In this document: piece by piece, positions 1,889 through 10,175 of the stretch | How positions within the stretch are numbered: position 1 is the first letter of the stretch | Layout of the letters: every line of letters starts with the position of its first letter | Assembly: GCA_016778895.1 (NCBI GenBank) | Contig: JADHOR010000001.1 | Coordinates: 62,001-126,000, forward strand | From: Candidatus Puniceispirillum sp. | GTDB lineage: Bacteria; Pseudomonadota; Alphaproteobacteria; Puniceispirillales; Puniceispirillaceae | DNA: 64,000 nt | Direction of reading: 5' to 3' | The notes under the pieces: generated by a model | Database searches by the model: none | Seen by the model: the letters and a program-made list of their open reading frames with translations, nothing else | What the model was told of the DNA's origin: nothing | Position numbers and translations under genes: made by a program

Positions 1889-2575
1889 ATGGATAATCAG
1901 ACCCAAACCAGAAACGCCATGACGCCCACCAACACGGCCGGTGAAGATGGTCTGCGCATTGACCAGTTAAGCGTGCTTCGTGGCATGGCGCTGGTCATCA
2001 GCAAATTATCGTTCCGGCAACAGGCTGGCGAAATTTGCTGCCTTACCGGGCCTAATGGCGCCGGTAAATCAACGTTACTGCGCACCATTGCTGGACGGCT
2101 TAGCGCTGCCGAGGGCACAATCACCTGTTCGGTGCCATTGGTTTATGTTGGCCATACTGACGGGTTGTCCGGCGCCATTACTGGCCGCGAAAACCTTGTC
2201 GGTTGGGCCAAGGTTAACGGGCTTTTGGCACCCGAGAGCGACATTGACACAGCGCTTGCCGGTTTTGCCGCAAACCGATTCTCCGACCTGCCGGTAAGGG
2301 TTTTATCACGCGGCCAGCGACGCCGGCTTGCGCTTGCCAGATTGGCGCTTGCCCCGTCAAATAGCCTGTGGCTTTTGGACGAGCCGAATGCCGGCCTTGA
2401 TCGGGCTTCAAATGACAGTCTTGACCAGCTTGTAACCGGTCATGCAGATCGCGGCGGTATGGTGATGGCGGCAACCCATCTCGATTTTGCGGCAGCAGCA
2501 ACACCGCGCTCGCTCCACCTTGCCGGGATAATGCCCGAAACCTCGTCAGCGTCGGCGCAAGGGAAAATTGGATGA
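1889..2575 (+). CDS. ccmA: Haem exporter ATP-binding subunit CcmA
   Basis: This is the ATPase of the CcmABCD complex, which releases haem-loaded CcmE during cytochrome c maturation at the inner membrane. The 228-residue product shows a Walker A GPNGAGKST at residues 54-62, the ABC signature LSRGQ and a Walker B ending LLDEPNAGLD. Length matches the family (about 200-230). ATG 1889 lacks a clear ribosome site, and the in-frame ATG at 1919 is an equally possible start that would remove ten residues. The stop overlaps the start of ccmB as ATGA, suggesting coupled translation. Confidence 0.95.
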   Translation: MDNQTQTRNAMTPTNTAGEDGLRIDQLSVLRGMALVISKLSFRQQAGEICCLTGPNGAGKSTLLRTIAGRLSAAEGTITCSVPLVYVGHTDGLSGAITGRENLVGWAKVNGLLAPESDIDTALAGFAANRFSDLPVRVLSRGQRRRLALARLALAPSNSLWLLDEPNAGLDRASNDSLDQLVTGHADRGGMVMAATHLDFAAAATPRSLHLAGIMPETSSASAQGKIG

Positions 2576-3243
2576 GCCCGTTCCTAGCACAAATTGAACG
2601 CGATTTGATGATTGCGTGGCAAAACCGGCAAGACCTCGGGGTCATGCTGATCTTTTTTGTAATCATTATCGCCTTATTTCCGCTGGCGATTGGCGCAAAT
2701 TCAGCAATTCTTGATCCACTTGGGATACAGGTTGTTTGGATTGCTGCATTGCTAGCTATTCTGGCTGGATTTGACAGGCTGTTTGCCCAAGATGTGCGCG
2801 ATGGCTGGCTTGATCAGGTTAGCCTAAGCCCCCTTGGGCTGGGCTGGTATGCCTTGGCAAAGGCAATCTCGCACTGGCTGACCGCCGGATTGCCGCTGTT
2901 AATCATGACACCAGTTATGGCGATTATGCTAAATATTCCAACCATCCAATGGCCGCCATTATTGATCGCATTGTTGATCGGCAGTATGGGATTAACCCTG
3001 CTAGGGGTGATCGGCGCGGCACTGGCCGAGGGCGCACGGCGCGGCGGTGCCTTAATGGCGCTGTTAATCCTGCCGCTAGCGGTGCCATTGCTGATTTTCG
3101 GCACGCTAGCCTCGCAAAGCGAGGATGGCATCATCAGCCCGCATCTGATGCTTTTAGGCGCAGTTTTTGCCGTGCTATTGGCTTTGGCTCCTTTGGTAGC
3201 AGCAAGCGCTCTTGAAATTGGCGAAACTGAAACCGGGTTGTAG
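2572..3243 (+). CDS. ccmB: Haem exporter permease subunit CcmB
   Basis: The 223-residue product is a polytopic membrane protein with about six hydrophobic segments and an N-terminus (FLAQIERDLMIAWQNRQD) typical of CcmB. It forms the membrane part of the CcmAB ABC transporter needed for c-type cytochrome assembly. It starts inside the ccmA stop codon (4 bp overlap) and is followed by 71 bp before ccmC. Length agrees with the family, about 220 residues. Confidence 0.95.
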   Translation: MSPFLAQIERDLMIAWQNRQDLGVMLIFFVIIIALFPLAIGANSAILDPLGIQVVWIAALLAILAGFDRLFAQDVRDGWLDQVSLSPLGLGWYALAKAISHWLTAGLPLLIMTPVMAIMLNIPTIQWPPLLIALLIGSMGLTLLGVIGAALAEGARRGGALMALLILPLAVPLLIFGTLASQSEDGIISPHLMLLGAVFAVLLALAPLVAASALEIGETETGL

Positions 3244-3314
3244 AGTGATGAGATCTACATCCCAAATTTCCGGTATCTTTCCAGCCTCCGAAAAACAAGG
3301 TATATGTCGGCACC

Positions 3315-4040
3315 ATGTTTGATTATCTTGCGAATCCGTCACGATTTATGCGCATTGCCAACCGGCTCTTGTGGCCGCTGGTCGCCGCTGCGGTGATTAC
3401 TGGTACCATCGGATTATATTTGGGCCTGTTTGTTGCGCCCGCCGATTACCAACAAGGCGATACGGTGCGAATCATCTATATTCATGTACCCGCGGCATGG
3501 CTGGCGTTGTTTGGCTATGTCGGACTCGGTCTTTGCGGCCTGTTCTATGTTGTGTGGCGACACCCGCTGGCCGATGTTGCGGCGCGAGCCATTGCACCAG
3601 TCGGTGCAGTTTTTGCGCTGTTAACGCTGGTCACTGGCGCATTATGGGGAAAGCCAATGTGGGGTGCATGGTGGGTATGGGACGCCCGCTTAACCTCGAT
3701 GCTGATCCTGTTCTTTTTCTATCTGGGGTTTATCGCGCTTGCCAATGGCTTTGACCGGGCGGAACGTGGCAGCCGGCCAGCCGCTTTATTGGCGCTTGTC
3801 GGGATGATTAATGTGCCGATTGTAAAATTCTCTGTCGATTGGTGGAACACGTTGCATCAGCCAGCCAGCTTGCTGCGTCGCGGCGGTCCGGCGATTGACC
3901 CATCGATGCTGACCCCGTTAGTGCTGATGCTTGTCGCCGCCCATGCCTATTTTGCGGTTTTGGTAATCTTGCGGATGCGCAGCTTGTTAGCAGAGCGCCG
4001 CATTGCCGCGCTGATGCTGCGCTCGGGAGGGGGTGAATAA
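3315..4040 (+). CDS. ccmC: Haem transporter/haem handling protein CcmC
   Basis: CcmC presents haem to CcmE on the periplasmic side. The 241-residue protein carries the tryptophan-rich haem-binding motif WGAWWVWDARLTS in its middle and about six membrane segments. The later segment VKFSVDWWNTLHQPAS is also conserved in CcmC. Length is normal. The TAA stop shares one base with the ATG of ccmD. There is no ccmE downstream in the window, so the remaining maturation genes must lie elsewhere. Confidence 0.96.
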   Translation: MFDYLANPSRFMRIANRLLWPLVAAAVITGTIGLYLGLFVAPADYQQGDTVRIIYIHVPAAWLALFGYVGLGLCGLFYVVWRHPLADVAARAIAPVGAVFALLTLVTGALWGKPMWGAWWVWDARLTSMLILFFFYLGFIALANGFDRAERGSRPAALLALVGMINVPIVKFSVDWWNTLHQPASLLRRGGPAIDPSMLTPLVLMLVAAHAYFAVLVILRMRSLLAERRIAALMLRSGGGE

Positions 4041-4265: not shown

Positions 4266-6344
4266 CTAGCGCCGCCGGCCGCCGCGCCGCCGCCCGCCTG
4301 CGAGCGCTGGTGCATCCTCATCGGTCAAAATCCGTTCAGGCAGGTCAACCGCCGCGGCAAGATTTGCATAGGGGTCGCTTTTATGCGGGATCGCCATCGC
4401 CTTCACAAAATGATCCTGAAACGATGGCTCGACGGCGGTTTCAATCTTTTCAATCTGCCGAACAACAGCCTCAATTTCGCGTCGCGCTGCCTGATTCAAC
4501 AAGGCTAGGCGCGCACCAGCACCAGCCGAATTACCAGCGGCTCTTACATTCTCCAGCAAACAATCCGGGATCATCCCCAGTATCATCGCGTATTTCGGGT
4601 CAATATGCGTTCCAAATGCACCTGCCAGCACAACACGATCGACCTTGCGAATGTTGATTTTATCCATCAGCAAACGAAAGCCTGCATAAAGCGCGGCTTT
4701 GGCCAGCTGGATTGCACGAACATCGTTCTGGGTAACGCTAATCGTATCAGTAATACGATAGGTAAATGTGCGATCGTCCGCCTCAATCCGGCTATTTACC
4801 GCCGCTTTAGTGCCGTCAATCACCCCGTCCATCGTGATAATTCCAGCCAGATACATCTCGCCAAGCACCTCGATAATCCCCGACCCGCAGATGCCGGTGA
4901 CACCGGTTTTCGCAACTGCAGCGTCAAACCCGTCCTCATCCGACCACAGATCAACGCCGATGACGCGGAATTTCGGCTCAAGCGTCGCCTTATCAATGCG
5001 GATACGCTCAATCGCACCGGGGGCAGCGCGCTGGCCTGATGAGATTTGCGCCCCTTCAAAGGCCGGTCCGGTTGGTGATGACGCCGCTAACAGCCGGTTC
5101 TGGTTGCCAACAACAATCTCGGCATTCGTTCCAACATCGACAATCAGGGTCATTTCATCAACTTTTTGTGGCGCCTCGGCAAGCACTACCGCCGCCGCAT
5201 CGGCGCCGACATGACCCGCAATACATGGCAGGATATAAACCCGCCCACCCGGATTTGTCGAAAGACCCAATTCGTGCGCCCGCACATCTAATGCCGCATC
5301 AACTGCCAGCGCAAATGGCGCCCCGCCAAGCTCAACCGGATCAATCCCCAACAATAAATGATGCATTACCGGATTTCCGACCAGCACCAGCTCGACAATA
5401 TCATCACTGCTAAGACCCGCCTGCTTTGCCGCACCATCAATCAAGCCTTGCAGTCCGTTAATAACCGCCGTGGTCATTTCCGCCGCACCGCCCGGATTCA
5501 TGATGCCATAGGAAACGCGGCTCATTAAATCTTCGCCAAACCTGATTTGCGGGTTCATCGCACCGGTTGAGGCCAAAACGGTTCCGGTTACCATATCGCA
5601 TAGATGCGCCGACATGGTGGTCGACCCCACATCAATCGCAACACCAGCAATCTGTTCTTTTAACCCCGGCCAGATCGCGACAATCTGGTGCCCATCACGA
5701 AGCGCAACGGTAATATGCCATTTACCTTGGCGCAAAACCGGCTGCAGCTGTCGCAGGACGTGCAAATCACAGGCAATTTCACCCTTAACGCGATCCGGCC
5801 ATTGTGCCATTAGGGCTTCGATTACGCGCCGCAGATCACCGGACGGCTCATGCATATCGGGTTCACGCACCTCGATGAAACACAAGCGTACAATGGGGTC
5901 CATCTCGATCGACCGCCCATCGGCCTCTTTGCGGATCAGCTGATTATGCACCTGACTTTCAGGCGGCACATCAATCACCGCATCCTTTAACAATTTTGCC
6001 TGACACGATAGCCGCCGCCCATTGATAAGGCCGCGTTTATCAGCATAACGAGTCTCGACAGCGGTTACCTCAGCCAGATGATCAGCCGCCGATTTCAGCC
6101 CATGCTTGGCAAACTCACCAACGCCAACGTCAATCTGACAGCGACCACACATCGCCCGCCCGCCGCAAACCGAGTCAATATCAACACCCAGCTGGCGCGC
6201 CGCGGTTAATACCGGCGTTCCAACCGGCACAAATCCCTGACGACCCGATGGCGTAAAGACAATCTTCACCTGATTAGCTGGCACGACCTGATCAGCCTCG
6301 ATCGGGCCGGTCATTTGATTAGCCTCATCATTGCTCTCGATCAT
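4266..6344 (-). CDS. RACo-like corrinoid activation protein (2Fe-2S ferredoxin plus ASKHA domain)
   Basis: The 692-residue product has an N-terminal 2Fe-2S ferredoxin domain with ligands at Cys60, Cys66, Cys69 and Cys114. A long ASKHA-type ATPase region follows, with phosphate-binding segments such as AIDVGSTTMSAHL and IVDVGTNAEIVVGN. This is the plan of reductive activators of corrinoid proteins (RACo/DUF4445), which use ATP to reduce accidentally oxidised Co(II) to Co(I). It is the last gene of the corrinoid cluster, so its client is most likely the B12 protein at 9453-10157. The C-terminus is an Arg/Gly-rich tail. Start uncertain: ATG 6314 has a GAGG ribosome site at good spacing, unlike ATG 6344. 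Confidence 0.88.
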   Translation of the reverse strand: MIESNDEANQMTGPIEADQVVPANQVKIVFTPSGRQGFVPVGTPVLTAARQLGVDIDSVCGGRAMCGRCQIDVGVGEFAKHGLKSAADHLAEVTAVETRYADKRGLINGRRLSCQAKLLKDAVIDVPPESQVHNQLIRKEADGRSIEMDPIVRLCFIEVREPDMHEPSGDLRRVIEALMAQWPDRVKGEIACDLHVLRQLQPVLRQGKWHITVALRDGHQIVAIWPGLKEQIAGVAIDVGSTTMSAHLCDMVTGTVLASTGAMNPQIRFGEDLMSRVSYGIMNPGGAAEMTTAVINGLQGLIDGAAKQAGLSSDDIVELVLVGNPVMHHLLLGIDPVELGGAPFALAVDAALDVRAHELGLSTNPGGRVYILPCIAGHVGADAAAVVLAEAPQKVDEMTLIVDVGTNAEIVVGNQNRLLAASSPTGPAFEGAQISSGQRAAPGAIERIRIDKATLEPKFRVIGVDLWSDEDGFDAAVAKTGVTGICGSGIIEVLGEMYLAGIITMDGVIDGTKAAVNSRIEADDRTFTYRITDTISVTQNDVRAIQLAKAALYAGFRLLMDKINIRKVDRVVLAGAFGTHIDPKYAMILGMIPDCLLENVRAAGNSAGAGARLALLNQAARREIEAVVRQIEKIETAVEPSFQDHFVKAMAIPHKSDPYANLAAAVDLPERILTDEDAPALAGGRRRGGRRR

Positions 6345-6370
6345 CGGATTATCACCAAAACGCGCGTTAA

Positions 6371-7273
6371 TTAGGCATTGCGACGGCGGCGGGTCTGGCG
6401 TCGTTCGCGCCCGCCTTCACCCGGCACAACCGGTTCCCGGAATTTTTGAATCCAGCGGCGGCACTCTGGATCATTTCCGTTCATCACATTGGCCCCCATG
6501 ATCGACGTCATTTCCTCGGCATGAAGCGGGTTCATAATGGCCGAAGTCATGCCAGCACCGGCTGCCATCGACAAGAACGCGGCGTTCATACCGTGCCTGT
6601 TCGGCAACCCAAAGGATATATTGGACGCACCGCAGGTGGTATTGACCTTTAGTTCATTGCGAAGCCGGATGATCAAATCCAACGCCGAGCGGCCAGCAAG
6701 GTTAATCGCCCCAACCGGCATGATCAGCGGGTCAACAACCACATCTTCACGCGGAATACCGTAATCTGCAGCCCGTTCGACAATTTTCTTGGCAACCTCA
6801 TAACGCACATCAGGGTCTTCGGAAATACCGGTTTCGTCATTCGAAATCGCCACAACAGCCGCGCCGTATTTCTTTACCAATGGCAACACAACTTCTAGGC
6901 GCTCTTCTTCACCAGTGACCGAATTGACCAGCGGCTTGCCTTTGTAAACCGCCAGCCCCGCCTCAAGTGCGGCAACAATTGAGCTATCAATCGCCAGTGG
7001 TACGTCAACCGTATCTTGGACAAGCTGGATCGCCTTGGCGAGAATCGCTGGCTCATCTACCATCGGAATCCCAGCATTCACATCCAACATCGTGGCACCC
7101 GCCTCGACCTGGGCAACGGCATCGGACAGCACGCGCGAATAATCGCCCGCAGCCATTTCCGCCGCTAGCAGCTTGCGCCCTGTAGGGTTAATGCGCTCAC
7201 CAATCACGCAAAAAGGCGAGTCAAAGCCAATGGTGATTTCCTGTTTATGCGACGAAATAAGGGTCTTAGTCAT
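6371..7273 (-). CDS. Methyltetrahydrofolate:corrinoid methyltransferase (pterin-binding family)
   Basis: The 300-residue protein is a pterin-binding TIM barrel. The opening CVIGERINPTGRK and later MLDVNAGIP are typical of MeTr and of the folate module of MetH. It should move a methyl group between 5-methyl-THF and the cobalt of the neighbouring corrinoid protein. A GGAG site precedes ATG 7273. It sits 27 bp upstream of the activator gene and 27 bp downstream of the reductase. It is a stand-alone module, not a MetH fusion. The C-terminus ends in an Arg-rich tail (GGRERRQTRRRRNA) outside the catalytic fold. Direction of transfer in vivo cannot be read from sequence. Confidence 0.9.
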   Translation of the reverse strand: MTKTLISSHKQEITIGFDSPFCVIGERINPTGRKLLAAEMAAGDYSRVLSDAVAQVEAGATMLDVNAGIPMVDEPAILAKAIQLVQDTVDVPLAIDSSIVAALEAGLAVYKGKPLVNSVTGEEERLEVVLPLVKKYGAAVVAISNDETGISEDPDVRYEVAKKIVERAADYGIPREDVVVDPLIMPVGAINLAGRSALDLIIRLRNELKVNTTCGASNISFGLPNRHGMNAAFLSMAAGAGMTSAIMNPLHAEEMTSIMGANVMNGNDPECRRWIQKFREPVVPGEGGRERRQTRRRRNA

Positions 7274-7299
7274 AAATATCTCCTGAAAATGCCGCCACC

Positions 7300-8232
7300 T
7301 TAGGCCGCCGATCCAACAACGTCAAACCCGCCTTTTGGCAAAAGCTGAATATGACCTGCCGCAATTGCATTTGCATAGGCAGCGGTCTTGGCAAAGCCGC
7401 CGAATGGGTAGAAATGAAAATGTTCGATCAGGCAATCAGGATCACTTGCCATGCCCTGCGCCAGATCAGACAGCAACAGATGCGGCGATTGCACTGTCAT
7501 CAGTTTCGCCACGTTGCGCGCCTGTTTCGAGATAAAACGCATAGACGGCCCGATACCAGAGATTTGCGCAAAACGAAACAGCGTCTTGATCGTGGCTGGC
7601 CCCGGAATGCCAATGCGAATTGGCAGTTCATTTCCGGCAGCCCGAACCCGCTTTTCCCATTCCAGCACAATTGGTGCCTCAAAACAGAATTGCGTTTCGA
7701 TATAGAGCGTCATGCCTTCGCGCTTGGCAAAGGCATTTTTTGCCGCCAGCGCATCGGCAATTTCTGCCTCGCTGATATAGGGGCTGCCCTCTGGATGGCC
7801 AGCGACACCGGCCGTCATGATACCATGTTTCTGCAAAAGACCAGTTTCTAGGATCTGCATCGAATTATCAAACGCACCAACCGGCTTGTCGACACCGCCG
7901 CCAATTACCAGCATCTCATCAACACCAGCCTCGGCGCGATACGCCGCAAGCAGCGTATCAAGCTGATCGGCATCGCGTAGCGAACGCGCCGCCAGATGCG
8001 GCACCGCCTTCATACCCTCATTGTGAAGCCGCTTTGTGACCGCCACCGTTTCCAGCGGGTCAGACCCCGGCAGAAAGGTAACATTGACCGTTGTTCCGGG
8101 GGCAAGACAGGCAGCGAAACTGTCGATTTTAGTCGCGCCTGCTGGGGTTACCTCGATTGACCAGCCCTCGGCCGCTTGCCGGATTTGTTGGATACTGGCC
8201 GCCATATTAAACCTCACATTTTCAGCTATCAT
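7300..8232 (-). CDS. Divergent methylenetetrahydrofolate reductase (MetF family)
   Basis: The 310-residue product belongs to the FAD-dependent MTHFR family, interconverting 5,10-methylene-THF and 5-methyl-THF. The segments AGVAGHPEGSPYI and YIETQFCFE match conserved MTHFR blocks. The usual N-terminal SFEFFPP block is replaced by WSIEVTPAGATK, so it is a divergent branch. ATG 8232 was chosen because a GGGGGGA ribosome site precedes it; a longer frame to 8295 lacks one. It lies between the 'virulence factor' gene and the corrinoid methyltransferase. It could feed methyl-THF into the pathway, or oxidise methyl-THF if the cluster is catabolic. Confidence 0.85.
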   Translation of the reverse strand: MIAENVRFNMAASIQQIRQAAEGWSIEVTPAGATKIDSFAACLAPGTTVNVTFLPGSDPLETVAVTKRLHNEGMKAVPHLAARSLRDADQLDTLLAAYRAEAGVDEMLVIGGGVDKPVGAFDNSMQILETGLLQKHGIMTAGVAGHPEGSPYISEAEIADALAAKNAFAKREGMTLYIETQFCFEAPIVLEWEKRVRAAGNELPIRIGIPGPATIKTLFRFAQISGIGPSMRFISKQARNVAKLMTVQSPHLLLSDLAQGMASDPDCLIEHFHFYPFGGFAKTAAYANAIAAGHIQLLPKGGFDVVGSAA

Positions 8233-8442
8233 TCTATCCCCCCAAATACCGCAGTTTGTCTTCATCTCGCAAGTTGTCTTGATGCCACTGGTCATCTAAT
8301 TCCCAAAAGACCGACAATCGCCATCGGCAAAACAGGCAGTTAGCATCGACTTGATTTTCGGCAGAATGGCCGCTTGGCCTAAACCAAGATGGCTTGCTAG
8401 CGTCTTTCAGTTTGCCGATTACGACATCAATTGAAATATCGC

Positions 8443-8757
8443 CTATGCTGGGGCCTTGCCGCCATTTTCCACCAAGGCCCGCACCCTTTCGGGCGTATAT
8501 TCTATATCCAATGCCGCTGCTCTGGCCGCTGCCTCAGCGTCGAGATCCTCGCCACATTCCTCAGGTGCCGAGCGCCGCCATTCGGCAAGATAATCATCGG
8601 TCGAGTCGGCACCATCGCGCATCGCCGCCGCATCAATCGCAATCGCAAAGCGTCGCGGCAATTCGATTTTGGCCTGCTCACGCTGTCGGCCGCGGCCACG
8701 TTCAGCAATCACCTGCGCCGGAATATCACGCCAAAAAAGGGTAATCAAATTTGCCAT
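8443..8757 (-). CDS. Small 'virulence factor' family protein (PF13769-like)
   Basis: The 104-residue protein begins MANLITLFWRDIPAQVIAE and contains DSTDDYLAEWRRSAPEECG, both typical of the small family annotated 'virulence factor' in alphaproteobacteria. The label is historical and no biochemical role is established that I know of. It has no signal peptide or membrane segment and is acidic at its C-terminal end. A GGAG site lies 6 bp before the ATG. Its place between the DUF1638 gene and the MTHFR suggests a role in corrinoid-dependent methyl transfer, not virulence. Confidence 0.8.
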   Translation of the reverse strand: MANLITLFWRDIPAQVIAERGRGRQREQAKIELPRRFAIAIDAAAMRDGADSTDDYLAEWRRSAPEECGEDLDAEAAARAAALDIEYTPERVRALVENGGKAPA

Positions 8758-8857
8758 CAGGCGCTCCTTTTTGTATTTCGGGTAAAATTACCTGCCATAC
8801 CTAAATGGGCGCGGCCATTATGCAGATCTACGCCCATGGTCAAACTTAAATTCAACT

Positions 8858-9472
8858 TTAAGCAAATTGTTTCAAAAAGCGGCTAAATTCGCCATAGCCG
8901 GTATAACGATATTCGTAATCAAGCCCTAGCTCACACGCTGCCTTTTGCGCCTTTTCCTGCAATGTTTTGGACCTTGTCTGCGCGATGTAGAGAACCCGCG
9001 TGTAATGCGCAAAATACAAATCGCGCAATTGCGGATACTGGCGCAACGCCATGCCCTTCATTACAATCCTTTCAAAATGGCGTACCATGTAATCAGTTAG
9101 AAAAAACGTGCCAAGTGCCTTGTCCATTTCAGCGTCAAAATCTGGCTTGCCGAGAAACATCTCATAACAATGCGGGCCAGCAATCCGGGCAATGTTTTCA
9201 GCCTCTAAAAGCGCGTCAATCTCACCACCAGTGCCGCAATCACCATAGGCAACGGCAATCTCCATCCCATCACGACGAGCCGCCGCAATTTTTTTCTTTA
9301 ATCCGGGAACAATTTTTTCAGGGTGATTATGCCATGATGCCGGAAGACAGGTTAATTCAACCGCGCCTTCTGGCAATTGATTTATTAGCACAAGCAGTTC
9401 ACGCGCCAGCGCCCCGCACGCAATTAAGTGCAGATGCGCTGGCTTAACAGCTTTAGCCTGCTGCTTGTTCAC
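8858..9472 (-). CDS. DUF1638 family protein
   Basis: The 204-residue protein contains the DUF1638 blocks HLIACGALARELL, SWHNHPEKIVPGLKKKI, AYGDCGTGGEID and GPHCYEMFLG. Candidate metal or thiol ligands are Cys19, Cys42, His48, His50, Cys79, His101 and Cys102. The biochemical function is unknown. The predicted start is a GTG lying inside the last 20 bp of the corrinoid protein gene, so translation is probably coupled. Given the cluster, it may act on the corrinoid protein or on a methyl acceptor, but this is a guess from position and conserved cysteines. Confidence 0.85.
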   Translation of the reverse strand: MNKQQAKAVKPAHLHLIACGALARELLVLINQLPEGAVELTCLPASWHNHPEKIVPGLKKKIAAARRDGMEIAVAYGDCGTGGEIDALLEAENIARIAGPHCYEMFLGKPDFDAEMDKALGTFFLTDYMVRHFERIVMKGMALRQYPQLRDLYFAHYTRVLYIAQTRSKTLQEKAQKAACELGLDYEYRYTGYGEFSRFLKQFA

Positions 9473-10157
9473 GTTCCAATTTAGCCTTGATCATTTCCTT
9501 GGCGGTTTCGACGGCCACCGCCGCATCACGGCAATAAGCATCGGCACCAACCGATTCGGCAAAGGCTTCGTTCAATGGCGCACCACCAACAAGAACGATA
9601 TAATCGTCACGTATGCCCTTTTCGACCAACGCATCCACAACCACTTTCATATAGGGCATAGTGGTGGTTAAAAGTGCCGACATCCCAAGAATGTCAGGCT
9701 TATGCTTTTCCAGCGCGTCAAGATAGTTTTCTACCGGGTTATTGATGCCAAGATCAATCACATCAAAACCGGCACCCTCAAGCATCATCGATACAAGGTT
9801 TTTGCCGATATCATGGATGTCGCCCTTGACCGTGCCGATTACCATGGTTCCAACGCGCGGCGCACCGGTTTCTGCCAGCAATGGACGCAGAATACCCATG
9901 CCAGCCTTCATCGCATTCGCCGCCATCAAAACTTCGGGCACAAACAAGATGCCATCACGGAAATCGATGCCAACAATGGTCATCCCTTCGACCAGAGCCT
10001 TGGTCAGGACATCATAAGGTGTCCATCCCCGCCCGAGTAGAATTTCGACACCTTCGACAATTTCATCCTGCATACCGTCATAAAGGTCGTCATGCATCTG
10101 CTGGACAAGTTCATCATCATCCAAATCAGCTAGAATAATTTCATCTTCATCAGCCAT
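9453..10157 (-). CDS. Corrinoid (cobalamin)-binding methyl carrier protein
   Basis: The roughly 234-residue protein has an N-terminal helical cap domain (about residues 15-95) followed by a Rossmann-like B12 domain. The lower-ligand motif is GDIHDIGKN, the DxHxxG signature; MSALLTTTMPYMKVV and VGGAPLNEAFA follow. Such proteins (MtbC/MttC-like, or the B12 module of MetH) carry a methyl group on cobalt between two partner enzymes. ATG 10157 is favoured over ATG 10163 because AGGAA lies 6-7 bp upstream of it. It is the first gene of the cluster. The methyl-THF transferase and the activator are in the same cluster, but no second methyltransferase is seen. Confidence 0.92.
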   Translation of the reverse strand: MADEDEIILADLDDDELVQQMHDDLYDGMQDEIVEGVEILLGRGWTPYDVLTKALVEGMTIVGIDFRDGILFVPEVLMAANAMKAGMGILRPLLAETGAPRVGTMVIGTVKGDIHDIGKNLVSMMLEGAGFDVIDLGINNPVENYLDALEKHKPDILGMSALLTTTMPYMKVVVDALVEKGIRDDYIVLVGGAPLNEAFAESVGADAYCRDAAVAVETAKEMIKAKLEREQAAG

Positions 10158-10175
10158 GATCATTTCCTTTTTTAC

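Follow-up and report, generated by a model that had tools for sequence, protein, structure and literature searches.

The locus examined here raises the question of how a methyl group enters and leaves a set of corrinoid proteins that is encoded without a recognized methyl donor or acceptor enzyme at its side. The window, a 64,000-nucleotide stretch analysed as a whole (G000:C11:62001-126000, from a 2.17-Mb genome listed as 99.6% complete), comes from Candidatus Puniceispirillum sp., a SAR116 alphaproteobacterium, and its open reading frame (ORF) reading contains six genes at 4266-10163, all on the minus strand. A preliminary description, made from the sequence alone, had read these genes as all the modules of the methionine synthase MetH apart from the homocysteine-binding zinc domain. 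A related matter is how several independent proteins share a single cobalamin in turn, a task for which MetH has linked domains. The operon is very probably the shared core of an MtgBCDE-type system, a pathway that would serve both catabolism and methionine synthesis. This function is assigned by analogy, from the genes and their families, their order and its conservation, the partner genes elsewhere in the genome and a pattern of charged protein tails, all of which were observed here.

Gene content of the operon

Pfam searches supported the family of each of the six proteins. The first gene, mtgC (9453..10163, minus strand, as for every operon feature below), encodes a 236-residue corrinoid (B12) protein, the putative hub, with B12-binding_2 and B12-binding domains and the motif GDIHDIG, which conforms to DxHxxG; its relatives in the Protein Data Bank (PDB) are 1y80, the trimethylamine (TMA) corrinoid protein and MetH. 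The end of the cluster had been placed at 10157, six bases before the first ATG of mtgC (10163). The second gene (8858..9472) starts with GTG, overlaps mtgC by 20 bases and encodes a 204-residue DUF1638 protein (PF07796, 102 bits), and is followed by a gene for a 104-residue member of the PF13769 'virulence factor' family, called VF below (8443..8757; 78 bits). The remaining genes are metF2 (7300..8295), encoding a divergent methylenetetrahydrofolate reductase (MTHFR) of 331 residues that reaches only 32 bits to PF02219; mtgD (6371..7273), encoding a 300-residue methyl-tetrahydrofolate (methyl-THF):corrinoid methyltransferase (PF00809; 371 bits to NF005719, cut-off 259); and a gene for a 692-residue RACo/RamA-like reductive activator with 2Fe-2S and ASKHA parts (4266..6344; RACo_C_ter 295 bits, Raco_middle 162, RACo_linker 105, Fer2 27). 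The NCBIfam matches of MtgC (best to the glycine-betaine MtgC and dimethylamine MtbC models), MetF2 and RACo were all under cut-off, and the DUF1638 and PF13769 proteins gave no match in the NCBIfam scan. The one-direction cluster of the preliminary description is thus real, and its assignment of a B12 protein, a methyl-THF:corrinoid methyltransferase, a MetF-family protein, a ferredoxin/ASKHA activator and two interleaved proteins of the DUF1638 and 'virulence factor' families was borne out.

A MetF2 profile matched PDB entry 7xg9, which we take to be the MTHFR of Sphingobium lignivorans SYK-6 (S6MTHFR), with an E-value of 3e-73, the next entry being at 5e-8. The window protein also shares 39% identity, over 87% of the query, with the MetF2 encoded by plasmid pCMU01, and it is nearer to the S6MTHFR/cmu MetF2 group than to canonical MetF. 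A canonical MetF is encoded as well, on contig C59 (276 bits). Consequently, MetF2 would be dispensable for the reductive direction, and it probably works in the oxidative one, methyl-THF oxidation. For S6MTHFR, a structure and methyl-THF oxidation have been described, with the THF-dependent O-demethylase LigM as partner (PMC12585457), and the accessible text on pCMU01 reports its MetF2 to be essential for chloromethane use (PMC3621897).

Methyl acceptor and donor enzymes elsewhere in the genome

That the cluster has no recognized methyl acceptor or donor enzyme, as first described, holds inside the window and fails genome-wide, where both were found. Three PF02574 proteins are encoded in the genome, and the one on contig C28 scores 473 bits to NF005718 (PRK07534; cut-off 338). 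With PRK07534 taken as the MtgE family, the C28 protein is assigned by this match as MtgE, the homocysteine module. A separate homocysteine methyltransferase encoded elsewhere was one of two options that the preliminary description had offered; the other, a protein embedded in the cluster acting as the acceptor enzyme, was rejected, since MtgE at C28 makes it unneeded.

On the donor side, the genome encodes four PF06253 (MTTB) proteins, the strongest of which, MTTB1 (C11:41896-43398, 756 bits), lies 23 kb from the operon. The nearest PDB relatives of MTTB1 are 4yyc, 2qne and 9yce ('glycine betaine methyltransferase'), with the TMA methyltransferase far lower, and the protein is assigned by similarity as a glycine-betaine-type MtgB. 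It is flanked on one side by a SoxB-SoxD-SoxA-SoxG set and on the other by an 812-residue DAO/GCV_T protein, which we read from its domain pair as of the dimethylglycine dehydrogenase type. With these genes adjacent, a chain from betaine through dimethylglycine and sarcosine to glycine could be encoded there.

A search set of 136 genomes of the order (Puniceispirillales) revealed VF in 64 genomes, DUF1638 in 32 and MTTB in 77, all 64 genomes with VF also having MTTB. Among the top MTTB matches listed, which covered all but eight of these 64 genomes, MTTB1 and the VF gene share a contig in 27; the distance between them is 26.0-31.6 kb in 26 of these and 48.5 kb in the remaining one.

None of the four PF06253 genes, one of which is truncated at a contig end, contains an internal stop such as the in-frame TAG of a pyrrolysine MttB. 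Rfam PYLIS_3 matches lie inside two MTTB genes without an in-frame stop (L095:9828-9927 and L096:7983-8091) and likely reflect plain coding similarity to mttB. The contig-end MTTB fragment (L094:1-2869, contig C56) adjoins cobalamin genes (DBI_PRT/CobT-type, and CobU-like by eye), with CobN on the same contig. A third MTTB gene (L096:7596-13137, contig C25) adjoins genes that by eye are TRAP-type transporter-like, and perhaps acts on a different methylated substrate. MTTB2 (L095:9445-15992; C11:156466) adjoins proteins of 823 and 831 residues, of which the one scanned is a DAO/GCV_T protein; this locus is perhaps a second betaine-like catabolic set.

Methionine synthases in the genome and the order

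The MetH reactivation domain, PF02965, was matched in none of the 136 genomes, that of the window included, in a search that was positive in seven of 14 control genomes. Neither MetH nor full-length MetE was found in the window's genome, where PF01717 gave a single match, a core-MetE-like protein of ~344-360 residues, which is too short for a full MetE. The preliminary description had set a complete metH or metE, together with an mttB dedicated to the cluster, against a role in methionine synthesis; that combination was not seen, as MttB-family genes are present but with no MetH reactivation domain and only this core-MetE-like protein. The split methionine synthase first proposed fits, with MtgE in the genome, and so does the catabolic use raised alongside it, because one MtgC/MtgD pair fills both roles in Ruegeria pomeroyi DSS-3. 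In the accessible text of Mausz 2025 (PMC12478193), methionine synthesis and betaine demethylation both depend on MtgC and MtgD, loss of mtgC or mtgD abolishes methionine prototrophy as well as growth on betaine, MetF2 increases on betaine, and SAR116 is reported to have mtgC. A family of 58 genomes within the order had no match to VF, DUF1638 or MTTB, no MtgE-level match and no PF02965.

Conservation of the operon and the MetF2/MetV slot

The order MtgC-(DUF1638)-PF13769-MetF2-MtgD was observed in all 20 loci fetched from the taxonomic order, and RACo is present in 18 of them, the remaining two being cut short by a contig end. Such a six-gene order is far beyond chance. In all 50 loci of the order (20 large, 30 small, from partly overlapping genomes), the gene after VF was MetF2. 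In 54 named loci with VF, out of 80 (L101-L180) fetched via DUF1638, the next gene was MetF2 in 37, MetV in 10 and MtgD in one, with none in view in six. A phylum sample of 27 gave MetF2 in 14, MetV in eight, a MetF of another type in two, MtgD in two and none in one. Distant next genes are included in these counts, and L207, a copy of the window, was left out of the phylum sample.

The name MetV is used here where a PF12225 protein precedes one of PF02219, and such a pair is annotated in Sinorhizobium meliloti, Azoarcus (a betaproteobacterium) and Paracoccus aminovorans, the stretch of the last being without VF. MetF2 and MetV occurred together in none of the loci examined, PF12225 was absent from the six window proteins in the Pfam search, and MetF2 and the second MetF linked to MetV have almost zero BLAST similarity. 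We read this as one operon slot that appears to exchange the module for methyl-THF oxidation, MetF2 in some genomes and an acetogen-type MetV-MetF pair in others, which supports putting methyl-THF oxidation inside the operon.

Because VF adjoins MetF2 or MetV in most loci with a neighbour in view, it may help the folate half of the system. Its alignment (A5, 52 of 54 sequences used) contains an invariant WRDIP and no invariant Cys or His. The AlphaFold2 model of VF (mean pLDDT 94.2) found no clear PDB relative, with a best Foldseek E-value of 0.48 and a best VIA Z of 2.6, which in these searches is not proof of a new fold, and PDB sequence searches with the DUF1638 and PF13769 profiles yielded no relatives.

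Several individual loci deserve mention. In genome G078, metF2 and mtgD are separated by ~2.2 kb of additional DNA (L083:5854-8022), unlike in the other large loci. G088 (L081; 99% complete) has the operon minus DUF1638 and no MtgE-level, PF01717 or PF02965 match. In ten loci mostly titled Hyphomicrobiales or relatives (L144, L146, L148, L151, L158, L159, L164, L173, L179 and L180), mtgC and DUF1638 adjoin at least two MTTB genes, with an untailed homocysteine-methyltransferase family protein alongside and mtgE too in seven of the ten.

Charged tails on the corrinoid protein and its partners

Charged ends were found on MtgC and on the proteins that must reach its cobalt (MtgB, MtgD, MtgE and RACo). 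Among 159 ORFs of at least 150 residues, from ~222 kb of this genome chosen to include the system, at least seven Arg in the last 25 residues were found in three, RACo, MtgD and MtgE, which are encoded on two contigs; an Arg-rich start was found in four, three of them intact MTTB proteins; and at least 11 Asp/Glu in the first 30 residues were found in one, MtgC. In the window, these features correspond to the arginine-rich C-terminal tails of MtgD (6374..6421, by Arg count) and RACo (4269..4307, read from the DNA) and to the acidic stretch formed by the first 30 codons of mtgC (10074..10163, by Asp/Glu count). ORFs cut by contig ends were left out of all tail counts, and ORF starts were taken at the first possible start, which produces false extensions in the N-terminal tests (four of 52 DUF1638 proteins pass the Arg test).

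The same pattern was seen across the order. All 45 MtgD proteins have at least seven Arg in the last 25 residues, and of 39 RACo proteins 36 have at least five and 30 at least seven. The MtgE tail contains at least five Arg in 20/20 and at least seven in 10/20 (20 proteins, out of 55 that exceed the cut-off), MTTB1 has at least seven Arg in a 25-residue window within its first 60 residues in 20/20 (20 genomes of 77), and MtgC has an acidic N terminus in 48/50. Five or more C-terminal Arg were found in no MetF2 (0/49), VF (0/51) or DUF1638 protein (0/17), and among the 177 unlabelled ORFs of 20 loci, seven or more occurred at no C terminus and at two N termini.

In the named loci outside the order, at least five C-terminal Arg were present in MtgD (20/23), RACo (19/20) and MtgE (10/11), and MtgC was acidic in 35/41; at least seven Arg near the N terminus were present in MTTB1 (8/14) and MTTB2 (11/12). 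The five-Arg test was passed by none of MetF2 (0/13), VF (0/30), MetV (0/13) or an untailed homocysteine paralog (0/11), by one of 12 second-type MetF proteins and by two of 52 DUF1638 proteins. MtgD and RACo of Azoarcus, S. meliloti and Paracoccus are Arg-rich at the end too. Three MtgD below the threshold, counting the order and the named loci, carry the Arg-rich run slightly further in, and of four such RACo proteins three still have a terminal Lys/Arg cluster, that of L221 being without one. RACo relatives of Acetoanaerobium and a haloarchaeon have no tail. The MtgD tail is more variable than the body of the protein (52% vs 81%); since protein ends vary generally, MetF2 included (45% vs 61%), this difference proves little.

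DUF1638 and residue 106 of MtgC

DUF1638 is absent from 34 of the 64 operon-bearing genomes of the order. In 13 measured loci without it, the gap between mtgC and the VF gene is 0-153 bases, so that the gene is missing from its place. MtgE is kept in 25 of the 34 genomes, once as a contig-end fragment, and nine of these 25 have no PF01717 match either; there, MtgCDE is the only recognized methionine synthase, in the absence of DUF1638. G124 and G135, also among the 25, each consist of one contig with a completeness of 99-100%, but have weak PF01717 matches. A tree of four operon proteins (40 tips) contains at least five DUF1638 changes by eye, and parsimony on a second tree made without MtgC (61 tips) gives three; the number of losses hinges on the ancestral state, which outgroups fetched via DUF1638 cannot settle, and the named loci, fetched in the same way, are unable to show loci without it. 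Repeated absence with MtgE kept argues for DUF1638 as a conditional component, outside the core of the synthase. In the accessible text of Price 2018 (PMC5764234), by contrast, DUF1638 is needed for methionine synthesis in Phaeobacter and has a near-identical distribution to the RamA-like protein.

Two roles for DUF1638 were considered and rejected: as a marker of methionine synthesis, given MtgE in 25 of the 34 genomes without it, and in B12 synthesis, since CobN and DUF1638 do not co-occur consistently (both in 17 operon-bearing genomes, DUF1638 only in 13, CobN only in 21 and neither in 13). Its closest named relatives are largely Candidatus Puniceispirillum and SAR116 records, that of L101 being 98% identical. 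The DUF1638 model (mean pLDDT 87.9) gave a best Foldseek E-value of 0.023 and a Z of 8.2 over 99 residues, values within the range of common arrangements; Asp/Glu racemases were among the rows, and no relation is claimed.

Residue 106 of MtgC (codon 9846..9848) is Thr in the window, Lys in all 34 genomes of the order without DUF1638 and Ser or Thr in 27 of the 28 readable genomes with it, being unreadable in G084 and G116. This residue was chosen post hoc, since no other of the 1909 aligned columns shows such a pattern. A correlated-evolution test, from which G072 was left out because one short gene alone gave its place in the tree, yielded an uncorrected p of 0.0004 that fails correction for 1909 columns, and Lys106 beside DUF1638 is common outside the order. 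For these reasons the apparent tracking is exploratory and serves as a lead only.

Proposed pathway and alternative explanations

In the proposed pathway, MtgC would carry cobalamin as the hub. For catabolism, the PF06253 protein MtgB, 23 kb away, would methylate MtgC from glycine betaine, MtgD would transfer the methyl group from MtgC to tetrahydrofolate, and MetF2 would oxidize the resulting methyl-THF to methylene-THF. For anabolism, MtgD would run in reverse and MtgE, from another contig, would hand the methyl group from MtgC to homocysteine to give methionine. RACo would use ATP to return oxidized Co(II) MtgC to Co(I), and the DUF1638 and PF13769 proteins would be accessories.

The charged tails suggest how these partners might alternate on the hub: the Arg-rich tails of MtgB, MtgD, MtgE and RACo may bind the acidic arm of MtgC, replacing the covalent linkers of MetH. 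We give this charge-tag code, an inference from the tail pattern, about an even chance. If it is true, the tag would mark any protein that carries it as a hub client, and could predict new methyl donors. That the tails instead serve a general purpose (RNA, membrane or polyphosphate binding, or solubility), with the acidic start of MtgC coincidental, is a serious possibility, if somewhat short of an even one: Arg-rich tails are able to bind many partners, and outside the order no more than eight of 14 MTTB1 proteins pass the N-terminal test. Yet in this genome the tails are found on functionally linked proteins encoded at separate loci, whereas MetF2, PF13769 and DUF1638 in the operon itself have none, and C-terminal tails are absent from the 177 unlabelled ORFs of 20 related loci. 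An arginine tail is also lacking in the presumed CmuB of pCMU01, whose partner, CmuA, includes a fused corrinoid domain.

Whether methionine synthesis belongs to the operon can also be disputed, and several observations weigh against a dual role. MtgC falls short of the NCBIfam MtgC cut-offs; two further homocysteine methyltransferase family proteins and the core-MetE-like protein are present in the genome; and 11 of the 64 operon-bearing genomes have no MtgE-level match (G002, G065, G088, G097, G101, G103, G104, G105 and G128, which lack DUF1638, and G082 and G112, which have it). Methionine synthesis may thus not be a universal role of the operon, though several of these 11 genomes are incomplete; the presence counts include six fragmentary MtgE matches. 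Moreover, the accessible text of PMC12366255 reports that in vitro Bmt, the MtgE homolog of Phaeobacter, forms methionine directly from betaine or dimethylsulfoniopropionate (DMSP) without cobalamin. Since Bmt works alone in vitro, MtgE need not always act via MtgC and may have a second, hub-free role. Here the operon could be purely catabolic, demethylating betaine and related methyl compounds, with methionine coming from MtgE alone on betaine, from the core-MetE-like protein or from another homocysteine methyltransferase, and it is in keeping with this that relatives of MetF2 oxidize methyl-THF or are needed for methyl catabolism, as far as the accessible texts go (PMC12585457 and PMC3621897). 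We consider a purely catabolic operon unlikely: MtgE is present with the same kind of arginine tail as MtgD and RACo of the operon, neither PF01717 nor PF02965 is matched in at least nine genomes that have both the operon and MtgE, and Phaeobacter without mtgCDE is a methionine auxotroph despite its core-MetE homolog, according to the accessible text of PMC12478193. Much less probable still is a substitution of the DUF1638 or PF13769 protein for the homocysteine-binding zinc domain of MetH. Four Cys and two His are invariant in DUF1638, as for a metal site (Cys19, Cys42, Cys79, Cys102, His48 and His101 in 66 sequences; alignment A4, using 65 of the 80 named loci); against such a role, a dedicated MtgE is encoded in the genome, more than half of the operon-bearing genomes do without DUF1638, and the PF13769 alignment has no such residues. 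The preliminary description is thus partly supported: its split synthase and its catabolic use both fit and a separate acceptor enzyme was found, whereas the embedded acceptor and, beyond the window, the lack of partners are not borne out.

Other features of the window

An Rfam scan of the window revealed no riboswitch or other match, and riboswitch control was rejected; the mtgE stretch (L093) gave a tRNA only. Signals in a promoter and terminator scan were no commoner than in shuffles. At 1889-4040 on the plus strand, three genes that by eye are ccmA/ccmB/ccmC-like are convergent with the operon.

Comparison with known systems

The published work of Price 2018 and Mausz 2025 places the operon in a known kind, and by its gene families it is assigned as the SAR116 form of the MtgBCDE system. 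In the accessible text of Mausz 2025 (PMC12478193), the core system is a major oceanic route of glycine betaine demethylation tied to methionine synthesis; the words 'arginine', 'tail', 'acidic', 'virulence' and 'MetV' are absent from its main text, as are 'arginine-rich' and 'acidic' from that of Price 2018 (PMC5764234). No description of the tail pattern was found, and none of the MetF2/MetVF exchange was recognized, within the open-access literature; nor was print found for the absence of DUF1638 or the tracking of residue 106. The tail pattern offers a concrete and cheaply testable answer to how partners take turns on one cobalamin.

As in Ruegeria, the system comprises MtgC, MtgD, MtgE, a PF06253 MtgB, MetF2 near MtgD, and RamA-like and DUF1638 proteins, although in the window, unlike in Ruegeria, six genes form one co-directional array; co-location of the genes is reported as frequent elsewhere, but not in Ruegeria and Phaeobacter, in the accessible text of PMC12478193. 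The three-part synthase of Phaeobacter inhibens, for which mutant fitness revealed methionine synthesis via three separate modules with a RamA-like and a DUF1638 protein (accessible text of PMC5764234), shares the split homocysteine, pterin and B12 modules. Classical MetH performs the same chemistry, from methyl-THF via cobalamin to homocysteine, but as a single polypeptide with covalent linkers and its own PF02965 reactivation domain, which was not found here. The cmu pathway of Methylorubrum extorquens CM4 follows a like logic of corrinoid to THF to MetF2 (accessible text of PMC3621897); it differs in that CmuA fuses methyltransferase and corrinoid domains, the presumed CmuB is tail-less, and the pCMU01 stretch shown contains no DUF1638 or PF13769. 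S6MTHFR of Sphingobium is the closest solved relative of MetF2, and pairs with LigM, unlike MetF2 here. Finally, the acetogen-type MetVF occupies in other Proteobacteria the same operon slot that in the window is held by MetF2.

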